In this document: one piece after another, positions 30,010 through 33,694 of the stretch | How the letters are laid out: each line of letters opens with the position of its first letter | Position numbering within the stretch: position 1 is the stretch's first letter | Assembly (NCBI GenBank): GCA_017694915.1 | Contig: JADIMF010000012.1 | Coordinates: 1 to 33,833, forward strand | Length of the DNA stretch: 33,833 nt | Direction: 5' to 3' | Source: Candidatus Ornithospirochaeta stercoravium | Lineage (GTDB): Bacteria; Spirochaetota; Spirochaetia; Sphaerochaetales; Sphaerochaetaceae | Notes under the pieces: generated by a model | Told to the model about the DNA's origin: nothing | The model's input: the letters and a program-made list of their open reading frames with translations, nothing else | Database searches by the model: none | Position numbers and translations under genes: made by a program

Positions 30010-30404
30010 CGATTGCCGCCTCCAGGTACGACAACAAAACTTCACGGAACTGGTTGTGTTTCAGAAATTACTTTACAGGAAGGAATTATGGTGGTCAAGC
30101 AACAGTAGATGTTCCGTTCAGTTGAGGACTTTTTGCGGTCACTAGCGGATATTTTGAGATCATCAAAAGGAAGTCCGTAAACACATTTCGACGTATGGGA
30201 AGTGAACCCTTCAGCAAAATCACCCTCTCAGACGCACGAGGATTGCCGAGAACGCATCCTGAATCAATTGTGGTGTAATTTCATGCTTTGTGCAAGACAA
30301 AGCGTTTCTTGGGCCGTTTTTGAGCAAATCATCAAGTTTCTTCCTGGGAGGATCTGTTCGCATACAGCCCAAGAGCTTATTTCCTGCACGCAGGAACAAC
30401 ACGA
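30010..30404 (-). pseudogene. Possible degenerate coding remnant of unknown family
   Basis: About 395 bp without an intact convincing gene. On the minus strand, short open stretches in different frames (...LDDLLKNGPRNALSCTKHEITPQLIQDAFSAILVRLRG*; then ERVILLKGSLPIRRNVFTDFLLMISKYPLVTAKSPQLNGTSTVA*), followed by a minus-strand terminator. Confidence 0.25.
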
Positions 30405-30960: not shown

Positions 30961-31034
30961 TTTAGACTTTAGATGTATATATTTATTATTATTTTTAATC
31001 AGAATGAGTTATCAAGTTTATACATTTAAAGTCT
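30961..31034. repeat. Inverted-repeat pair A/B downstream of the par cassette (candidate centromere/operator)
   Basis: TTTAGACTTTAGATGTATA (30961-30979) and TTTATACATTTAAAGTCT (31017-31034); 15/16 match between AGACTTTAGATGTATA and the reverse complement of TATACATTTAAAGTCT. Confidence 0.6.
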
Positions 31035-31045
31035 ATAAAACTAAA

Positions 31046-31420
31046 TTATTTTCTACGTCTAGTTGTCTGAAGTCTGTAAATCGCCTCTGCAGCTTCTGAT
31101 AATTCCGGATTCAATGCCCGGCTTTGCTTTATTAGATAGGCGATAAGACTGGAGACATCACCTCCGCACAATCCCTGCTCATTCATCTCCTTTGATAGCA
31201 TGTTGCAATAGATGACATCATTGGCTGTCATCTTCACTGTGACATTCTTTATTATCTTAGATCTGTCGAGTGTGGCACTTGGCCTTCCCATCTTTTTTTT
31301 CGCTACTACTGGTTCAGTAGCAGGGACTTCTACAACTGAAGGCTTTTCCTGAGTTTCAACAGGCTTTGGTTCTTTCTTCTCCTCAACCTCGGTATTCCAT
31401 GCATCCATCAGTCTGCTCAT
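31046..31420 (-). CDS. Small ribbon-helix-helix-like protein, candidate centromere-binding partner of ParA
   Basis: Acidic/Pro-rich N-tail, then GRPSATLDRSKIIKNVTVKMTANDVIYCNMLSKEMNEQGLCGGDVSSLIAYLIKQSRALN (beta-alpha-alpha pattern); downstream of and translationally coupled to parA; ATG at 31420 with AAGGAG. Confidence 0.6.
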   Translation of the reverse strand: MSRLMDAWNTEVEEKKEPKPVETQEKPSVVEVPATEPVVAKKKMGRPSATLDRSKIIKNVTVKMTANDVIYCNMLSKEMNEQGLCGGDVSSLIAYLIKQSRALNPELSEAAEAIYRLQTTRRRK

Positions 31421-31422
31421 AT

Positions 31423-32187
31423 TCAAATCTCCTTCAGTATCTCTTCAAAGAGTGCATCATAGTCTTTTGAGATCGGGCTTTTCTTGCCTTTGACTGTGCT
31501 GTTCCTATTCGCCTGGGCATCTTCTATGGCTACACTCTGCCTGATCTTTGATTCAAAGACCTTTGTATTGAGGAACTTTGACGAGATCATCTCAAGATCC
31601 GGAATCGCTTCCTTGCTGAGCCTGGTACGGGGATTATAACGGGTAACAAGAAGTCCAAGGATCTTCAATTCAGGATTTGCTGATTCTTTCACTTCATTGA
31701 TCGTCTCAGACAGAGCCCTGAGTCCTTGAATGGAGAGAGCATTTGCATTGACAGGAACGATAACATAATCAGAGGCAATAAGAACATTCCAATTTATGAT
31801 GCCGAGAGTCGGAGGCGAGTCTATGATACAGATGTCATAAAGGGATGAAACATCTTTCAATGCGTTCTTGAGAAGCTGCATTGAATTGACTCCTATGAAC
31901 ATCCTGTCCGCATTGCTCATAAGAATGTTATTGGGAACAAGATCCACTCCTTCTGCTGTCTTGATTACAGCATCCTCAAGAGAGACAGTTCTGGAAAAGA
32001 CATCCTTGAGAGTATGCTGCCCTTCCTTGTCGGGATTGATACCGTAGATGTATGTCATGTTGGCCTGTGGATCAGCATCAATGGAGAGCGTTTTCTTTCC
32101 AGCTTTTGCAAACCGTGATGCTATCTCAACCGCACTTGTAGTCTTGCCGACTCCGCCTTTCTGATTGATCAGAGCAATTGTAATCAT
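31423..32187 (-). CDS. parA: ParA/Soj-family partition ATPase (no N-terminal HTH)
   Basis: 254 aa; MITIALINQKGGVGKTTSAVEIASRFAKAGKKTLSIDADPQANMTYIYG (deviant Walker A), YDICIIDSPPTLGIINWNVLIASDYVIVPVNANALSIQGL. RBS AAAGGAGG. Confidence 0.95.
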   Translation of the reverse strand: MITIALINQKGGVGKTTSAVEIASRFAKAGKKTLSIDADPQANMTYIYGINPDKEGQHTLKDVFSRTVSLEDAVIKTAEGVDLVPNNILMSNADRMFIGVNSMQLLKNALKDVSSLYDICIIDSPPTLGIINWNVLIASDYVIVPVNANALSIQGLRALSETINEVKESANPELKILGLLVTRYNPRTRLSKEAIPDLEMISSKFLNTKVFESKIRQSVAIEDAQANRNSTVKGKKSPISKDYDALFEEILKEI

Positions 32188-32206
32188 GGATTCCTCCTTT
32201 GTATCT

Positions 32207-32235
32207 ATAATGTGTCATAATAATTTAACAGTCAA
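32207..32235 (-). promoter_or_regulatory. Candidate sigma70 promoter of parA
   Basis: Minus strand TTGACT (32230-32235) - 17 nt - CATTAT (32207-32212), upstream of the AAAGGAGG RBS. Confidence 0.4.
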
Positions 32236-32256
32236 GGCTATAAAAATATAAATTAG

Positions 32257-32331
32257 TTTAGACATATAAATGTATAAAATATAAATACTACGATGCAACA
32301 GGCATTTATACATTTTATACGTATAAAGTCT
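32257..32331. repeat. Inverted-repeat pair C/D upstream of parA (candidate centromere/operator)
   Basis: TTTAGACATATAAATGTATAAA (32257-32278) and TTTATACATTTTATACGTATAAAGTCT (32305-32331); AAATGTATAAA/TTTATACATTT is a perfect 11-bp inverted repeat. Contains the 14-bp palindrome TTTATACGTATAAA (32314-32327). Confidence 0.6.
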
Positions 32332-32416: not shown

Positions 32417-33694
32417 ATGAGCAGCAACTATTACAACTATGAAGTCAAGAATGATACCACCTATGAGGAAATGCCCAGAAAGCGCTTTAGCCTGATTGGG
32501 CTGCTATCAAAGATAAGGAATCTGTGCTTCCTCATTCTGCTGGTCATCCTCATCTTCACAGCCTGGCCGAGCCTTCACACTGAATCATATCTGTGCTTCA
32601 GGCTCATCGTCGGGCTCATCTTCAATAAGGAGATCTTCTCCCTTGTAGTTTCAAGCTTCATAGAGGGCTTTAATCTTCAACCAATCGCAAGGAGCATAGA
32701 GCTGCTTGTCCTGGTAGTCTGTGTATGGAAACTCATCTTCAGAGGAAAGATCCTTGCTTTTCTCAGGATCAAATCGATTGTCATGCTTTCACTCGCTTCT
32801 TACTGGATCTACCTGATACTTTTCTATGCGCTTAACATCACAACACTGCCGATCTGGAGTGAATATGCTTCTTTCTTCATATACAGTCCTATGTTCTGCT
32901 GGCTGTATCCGTTGGGACTTGATATGGCAATGAAAGCATATGCCGTTATCATCGTTCTGATAGCATGTTATCTTGCCACTGTCATCTTCTATGGATCATC
33001 TGTAAGAGAAGGACAGAGGCTCGACAGGGATGATATGGAAGAACTTGGAATCAACGATGTCTTGAGGAGAGTCAATCCTATCAGAAAGATCTTCCTTCCC
33101 CGTCCACGGTTTTATGCTACTGATACATTCAGCCAGAATGCATACTCATCCGGACGAAACATCGTAATTGCACTTGATATATTTGATGAAGGAATAGAAG
33201 TAGCACAGGGAGTGATAGCTCATGAACTTGGGCATTACTATCACTATGACACGGATGCTTCACTGATCTGCAATGTGGCCATCAATACAGTCACATTTCC
33301 TCTGATGATTGTCACATTCATAGCAAGGATCCTTTCCCATATTCCTTTCCTGGGAATTGCAGCTGGAATCTACGGGCTTCTGCTGTCAGTCTTTGGTGCA
33401 ATCACCGGGATAATCTTCAACATCATCAACCTGGTCTTCTACTGGATTGATGGAAAGTGGGCTGAACGCAGTGCTGATATGTTCTCTGTGGTTTTAGGCT
33501 ACGGATTTGGCAATTATCTCTTTCTCTCGAAGTACACAGAGGGATTCTCACTCAGAGCTCTCATATCCGGATTCCTGGATGTTCATCCGGGAACAAGAAG
33601 CAGATGCAGATACATCAAGAAGAGAATCATCAGATACTATGGAGAGGACTACTGGGACAGTTGTGTTGCAGTTTATGGTGACTACTACGTATGA
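32417..33694 (+). CDS. Membrane M48-family (HtpX/Ste24-like) zinc metallopeptidase
   Basis: 425 aa, multiple TMs; GVIAHELGHYYHYD (HEXXH), WAERSADMFSVVLGYG (third ligand region, E..xAD), DVHPGTRSR (HP...R motif typical of M48). Confidence 0.85.
   Translation: MSSNYYNYEVKNDTTYEEMPRKRFSLIGLLSKIRNLCFLILLVILIFTAWPSLHTESYLCFRLIVGLIFNKEIFSLVVSSFIEGFNLQPIARSIELLVLVVCVWKLIFRGKILAFLRIKSIVMLSLASYWIYLILFYALNITTLPIWSEYASFFIYSPMFCWLYPLGLDMAMKAYAVIIVLIACYLATVIFYGSSVREGQRLDRDDMEELGINDVLRRVNPIRKIFLPRPRFYATDTFSQNAYSSGRNIVIALDIFDEGIEVAQGVIAHELGHYYHYDTDASLICNVAINTVTFPLMIVTFIARILSHIPFLGIAAGIYGLLLSVFGAITGIIFNIINLVFYWIDGKWAERSADMFSVVLGYGFGNYLFLSKYTEGFSLRALISGFLDVHPGTRSRCRYIKKRIIRYYGEDYWDSCVAVYGDYYV

Follow-up and report, generated by a model that had tools for sequence, protein, structure and literature searches.

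A predicted ParA-RHH partition cassette with candidate binding sites on both sides, on a mobile chromosomal module of Candidatus Ornithospirochaeta stercoravium

The stretch of DNA analysed here (the window, 33,833 nucleotides) probably carries a type Ib-like DNA-partition cassette on a mobile chromosomal module. The cassette is made of parA and a gene for a 124-aa partner, flanked by five repeated sites whose sequence and spacing are conserved. One of them abuts the -35 box of parA, and all five are candidate partner-binding sites. The window is an entire contig (C73) of a 2.07-Mb genome in 165 contigs. The genes mnmE, mnmG and rsmG were confirmed on this contig, and alaS and other core genes were read from its ORF list, so the locus is chromosomal. 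The setting is not a plasmid, since a plasmid contig is rejected by the presence of core genes. The host also has a canonical parA-parB pair, separate from the cassette (G000:C129). Neither an integrase nor a replication gene could be recognised next to the locus.

The parA gene (31423..32187, minus strand) encodes a 254-aa protein with a deviant Walker A motif (KGGVGKTT) and a match to Pfam AAA_31 (1.8e-51). The Walker domain starts at residue 3. The protein is thus a small ParA without an N-terminal DNA-binding domain, and its size falls within the type Ib range (192-308 aa for ParA, 46-131 aa for ParB; PMC3235114). In the ParA tree, where ORF length and a ParB search served to assign the partner type, it belongs to a clade of 55 members (support 0.966) with zero HTH-ParB partners, and all 100 ParAs with an HTH-ParB partner lie outside that clade. 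It groups there with cassettes that have small partners, most of which come from viral and plasmid contigs. The HTH ParB (ParB_N) that characterises chromosomal ParABS (Soj/Spo0J) was not found adjoining the cassette ParA. Among PDB relatives, Soj-type structures (E 2e-36 to 1e-32) are nearer in sequence than delta (3e-15) or ParF (1e-09). The closest plasmid relatives examined have 39-41% identity, and a small gene follows each of them, one annotated as HicB-like. The search of genome contigs returned only other ParAs, with at most 41% identity.

The partner gene, rhh (31046..31420, minus strand), lies downstream of parA, its ATG 2 nt after the parA end. Its 124-aa product, within the type Ib range and not a ParB_N protein, is composed of an N-terminus with the sequence MSRLMDAW, a disordered linker and an RHH-like C-terminus. 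No match was found in Pfam or NCBIfam or in the plasmid search, no significant one in the PDB profile search, and no relative in viral contigs. In the AlphaFold2 model, the N-terminus is disordered and three helices (residues 66-81, 89-103 and 105-123) come after a strand-like segment, KNVTVKM. The model has a moderate overall pLDDT of 71, reaching about 90 in the C-terminal half, and its best Foldseek matches include MetJ and the RHH protein ParD at non-significant E values of 4-10. From this moderate model we infer an RHH fold, in agreement with the small RHH-like partner originally proposed. In the alignments, all seven close members have an unchanged MSRLMDAW tail, and a related start, basic and hydrophobic, is found again in distant partners. 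The predicted strand KNVTVKM is identical in all five genomes sharing the site motif. It reads KSTSIKM and KKTAILM in L096 and L141, respectively, two cassettes whose flanks carry a TTTATGCAT-type sequence in place of the motif.

Two of the five sites lie downstream of the genes and three upstream. Site A, the outer downstream one (30961..30981, plus strand; AGACTTTAGATGTATATA), is conserved in five genomes and inverted relative to site B (31017..31034, minus strand; AGACTTTAAATGTATAAA), which lies 11 nt past the rhh stop. On the other side, site C (32257..32278, plus strand) contains the palindromic core TTTAGACATATAAA and an overlapping core at 32265, and site D (32305..32331, minus strand; AGACTTTATACGTATAAA) contains a perfect palindrome, TTTATACGTATAAA, as well as an overlapping core. 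The sequences and coordinates of these four are as first described. Site E (32235..32252, plus strand), an operator candidate absent from the original prediction, is next to the -35 box TTGACT of a parA promoter-like site (32207..32235, minus strand; TTGACT-17-CATTAT) that is conserved in the alignment. Beyond site D, a gene for a membrane M48 metallopeptidase (32417..33694, plus strand; Pfam Peptidase_M48 8.2e-07) is divergent from parA.

An 18-bp motif, AGACTTTA-NNN-GTATAAA, is common to sites A, B and D. Site C fits only the palindromic core in the window and reads TTTAGACGTATAAA in two relatives; site E is AGGCTATAAAAATATAAA in the window and AGACTATAAAAGTATAAA in two relatives. The proposal of one motif repeated four times in two inverted pairs therefore stands for A, B and D as close copies, with C being a weaker one. 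The inverted pairing is present in the window, but taken by itself it is modestly above chance per sequence (p 0.01-0.02 in the window and weaker in most relatives). The clustering was evaluated by motif searches. With up to 3 mismatches, AGACTTTANATGTATAAA has four matches in the window, none of them outside the two flanks, compared to a mean of 0.10 in 100 dinucleotide shuffles, none of which reached four. The 14-bp palindromic core TTTANACGTNTAAA has five matches in the window, also all in the flanks, versus 0.36 expected. The search was extended beyond the cassette as proposed, and when one mismatch at most was allowed, A, B and D were the sole motif matches in the whole genome. A chromosome-wide centromere was rejected on the basis of this confinement to the cassette. 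The picture of an array of short repeats did not hold up either, as the sites do not form a long iteron array. The two-sided pattern is nevertheless solid, because sequence and spacing are conserved across genomes, and it does not depend on the inverted pairing alone.

The close relatives of the cassette are L093, L094 and L095, from the same genus, and L187, from another genus. The M48 gene is 88-94% identical in L094, L093 and L187, and L187 is 96% identical to the window in parA and 94% in M48. In the aligned flanks of the five genomes, the site columns have a mean pairwise identity of 0.84-0.86, compared to 0.47 for the non-site columns of the downstream flank, 0.66 for those of the upstream flank and about 0.75 for the third codon positions of parA and rhh. 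When the site mask was shifted, the observed contrast was reached in 0 of 114 positions downstream and 5 of 242 upstream. The start-to-start spacing of A and B, about five helical turns, is 53 bp in four genomes and 51 bp in one, the A site of L094 being taken from the cross-genome comparison of flank homology. The cores of C and D are 57-58 bp apart, E and C are spaced by 18 bp in all five genomes, and site E is located 65-66 bp from the start codon.

On the RHH side, nearly all comparisons show homology stopping no more than about 6 bp from site A, the exception being the window and L094, which share a nitroreductase gene past this site. In the other genomes, the gene beyond site A is AAA/DUF4143 (L093, convergent), DUF3800 (L095, convergent) or, by inspection, pyrG (L187). 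Because homology stops at A though the next gene varies, the A/B pair belongs to the cassette and travels with it. In L093 and L095, the position of A/B between convergent genes excludes an operator of the neighbouring gene. Conserved motifs on both sides, belonging to the cassette rather than to its neighbours, are thus supported by the five-genome conservation and the end of homology.

Among 139 genomes of the order, 13 matches to the motif with at most one mismatch were found. Seven are at module flanks (G000, G042, G025 and G111), two lie beside remnants of the module or of a repeat in cassette carriers (G034 and G003) and four are elsewhere; a reversed-pattern control gave a similar number of scattered chance matches. 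A perfect motif off the cassette in G010, with no adjacent cassette gene, was taken as chance. In 16 viral contigs with the motif, tblastn found no match to ParA, RHH or M48. Similarity between the two flanks of a cassette is significant in the window, L093, L095 and L187 and borderline in L094 and L096. It was not seen in the distant ParA-small-partner cassettes L101, L190, L132, L133, L189, L137, L138 and L140, and L134 has one direct flank match (p 0.02) of unrelated sequence. Homologous cassettes without a flank repeat, named in the original prediction as evidence against it, do therefore occur among distant subtypes, but not among the close ones. Lone copies of site A (AGACTTTAGATGTATATA) lie, away from any intact cassette, in a ~590-bp repeat, 84-86% identical between L141 (3950-4600) and L095 (7728-8231), with an RHH remnant nearby in L141. 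Another RHH remnant, in G017, retains a decayed B site.

The mobile module is constituted of the M48 protease, usually TraX, ParA and RHH. TraX (PF05857) follows M48 in L093, L094, L095, L187 and L189; past M48, the window differs from the relatives in sequence and then reaches the end of the contig. All nine loci with 70% or more M48 identity and sufficient contig sequence have ParA next to M48, and in four of these (L134, L135, L189 and L327) the ParA is of a different subtype. With parA 96% identical across genera in a different neighbourhood, horizontal transfer is indicated. By ORF inspection of these broken contigs, no integrase was recognised near the module, and TraX is present in relatives. 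Some copies are broken: M48 is split in G003 and contains a stop in G032.

BREX genes were found within about 6 kb of the module in all three relatives with assembled sequence on that side. In G111 and G025, the module is next to a BREX operon that includes BrxC, PglZ and BrxL in both, and BrxL is within about 6 kb of it in G003. The space between BREX and the module is occupied by Thoeris ThsA/ThsB in G111, an AbiJ-like gene in G025 and CBASS-type ThiF and JAB genes in G003. BrxL occurs in 8 of the 139 genomes, including 3 of the 5 module carriers (p = 0.001, a value that ignores kinship); none was found in the source genome or in G042. As copies have moved between genera and defence genes are adjacent in three relatives, these data suggest a stability module travelling with a defence island.

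For the cassette as a whole, we infer DNA binding, ATPase stimulation and a partition function. The 124-aa protein would bind, as an RHH dimer, the AT-rich candidate sites of ~14-18 bp, namely the two inverted pairs that flank parA-rhh and the fifth site at the parA promoter. The sites are likely to have binding and centromere roles. Upstream, D, C and E could serve both as an operator that represses parA and as one half of the centromere; downstream, A and B could provide a second, purely centromeric half. Both pairs together would make the partition complex on which ParA acts. The conserved N-terminal tail of the RHH protein may stimulate ATP hydrolysis by nucleoid-bound ParA, so that the DNA bearing the sites would be moved or tethered. 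The chromosomal location counts against partition, as does the result that distant ParA-small-partner cassettes have no clear two-sided motif in common. So does the presence of only two to three sites per side; in pSM19035, full ATPase stimulation takes at least four contiguous repeats (PMC9499535). Since the chromosomes carrying the cassette have parABS systems of their own, it is most likely either a means of stabilising or positioning the island in an excised or plasmid-like form or the retained relic of such an element. For a chromosomal cassette to matter, the island would have to be extrachromosomal at times, as with srpMRC of SXT/R391 and Soj of PAPI-1; otherwise the cassette may be a relic. 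A broader and rather tentative reading considers M48 (usually with TraX), ParA, RHH and the two-sided centromere as a conserved unit accompanying BREX islands across genera, which would actively stabilise or position the island or couple its state to defence.

The sites could instead be operators without a centromere function, the RHH protein repressing only parA-rhh and the divergent M48 gene. The location of C, D and E between parA and M48, with E abutting the parA -35 box, fits such autoregulation, and type Ib ParB proteins are known to autoregulate (PMC3235114). This explanation is unlikely, however, as A and B come after the last gene and are kept where the next gene is convergent (L093, L095) or different. 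It is also conceivable, though less probable still, that ParA and RHH anchor or cluster the island relative to the membrane proteins M48/TraX or to the BREX/Thoeris/CBASS genes and thereby regulate the defence island. The retention of M48, usually with TraX, beside a ParA of another subtype and in another gene order (L134, L135, L189, L327), and the closeness of BREX in every locus assembled on that side, are consistent with it. Their co-location on islands may nevertheless be passive, the source genome is without BrxL, and in the tree the ParA is placed among cassettes with small partners, most of them from viral and plasmid contigs. To our knowledge, no mechanism links M48 or TraX to ParA.

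Two structural readings are very improbable. Sites A and D might be terminal inverted repeats bounding a small transposable unit that contains parA-rhh, since A is inverted relative to the outer half of D, with an 88% match over 16 nt, and homology stops near A. Homology runs past D through M48, and usually TraX, in all close relatives, and the motif has internal copies at B, C and E; a 1.37-kb transposable unit, in which there is no transposase, is largely refuted by these two observations. The inverted pairs might also form RNA hairpins or terminators, which is equally hard to credit: the A/B strand does fold (-13 kcal/mol), but with a z score of only -1.6. No intrinsic terminator was found, the motif is also present upstream between divergent genes, and the Rfam search found nothing.

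A partition cassette with sites on both sides has precedents, of which the original prediction had named pB171. The constructs of pB171 are written parC1-parA-parB-parC2 (PMC4270457), and in pMF1 the ParB-bound iterons ItA and ItB are found up- and downstream of the genes (PMC3235114). Since two-sided sites are known from these type Ib plasmids, the layout is not new in kind. The present cassette resembles pB171 par2 and pMF1 in its small ParA, its small partner and candidate sites on both sides. Unlike these plasmid systems with their iteron repeats, it is located on a chromosome, its few sites are arranged in inverted pairs, and no sequence relatives of its partner are recognisable. A predicted RHH partner with a flexible N-terminal tail and a small ParA without HTH are shared with TP228 ParFGH and pSM19035 delta-omega, whose sites also act in transcription control (PMC5016525, PMC9499535). 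However, the TP228 centromere is upstream (parH) and pSM19035 has contiguous heptad arrays, unlike the two-sided layout described here. In ParG, the flexible tail provides an arginine finger that stimulates the ATPase (PMC5016525); by analogy, the partner tail may have a similar role.

The archaeal SegAB system also combines a chromosomal ParA with an RHH partner, which is predicted in our case. SegB binds imperfect palindromes, two of which are just upstream of segA (PMC12284271). Its sites are also scattered over the chromosome, whereas those of the present cassette occur only at the cassette, and the host here has parAB in addition. Partition genes on chromosomally integrated mobile elements are known from SXT/R391 (srpMRC) and PAPI-1 (Soj) (PMC4489591). 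srpMRC is type II (actin-like), and, unlike these elements, the assembled module has no recognised integration genes and only TraX as a transfer gene. What is new is the partner sequence family, the layout of five sites with inverted pairs, and a chromosomal module in the company of a defence island. Partition systems have so far been studied mainly on plasmids and chromosomes. If the proposed function is true, a ParA-RHH cassette near BREX, Thoeris and CBASS bears on how defence islands are kept or moved. With two inverted pairs and one additional site, the question of a minimal centromere for RHH systems becomes directly testable.

Several other features were observed around these loci. A ~300-bp repeat (R; window 30012-30335), apparently non-coding and without convincing RNA structure, is found full-length in only 4 of the 139 genomes, each of them a module carrier (p 3e-7). 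It is located 0.6-2 kb past site A, with a variable gene in between, and is possibly the far end of an element. In G111, a tRNA-Phe gene (L331 8788-8861) directly precedes the BREX operon and is a possible integration site. The source genome holds a second ParA-small-partner cassette, L137 (G000:C115, 4363-7172), in which an ORF with a transposase-type HTH overlaps parA. It is followed by genes for a small exported-looking protein and a caspase-like protein (Peptidase_C14), in the same order as in G032 (L138 2821-5421). In L134 and L189, which have a different ParA-RHH, a 194-aa HTH protein is encoded between rhh and M48-TraX, all genes being co-directional. In L094 (896-3220), an IS21-like istA/istB pair, recognised by ORF inspection, is inserted between M48 and TraX.
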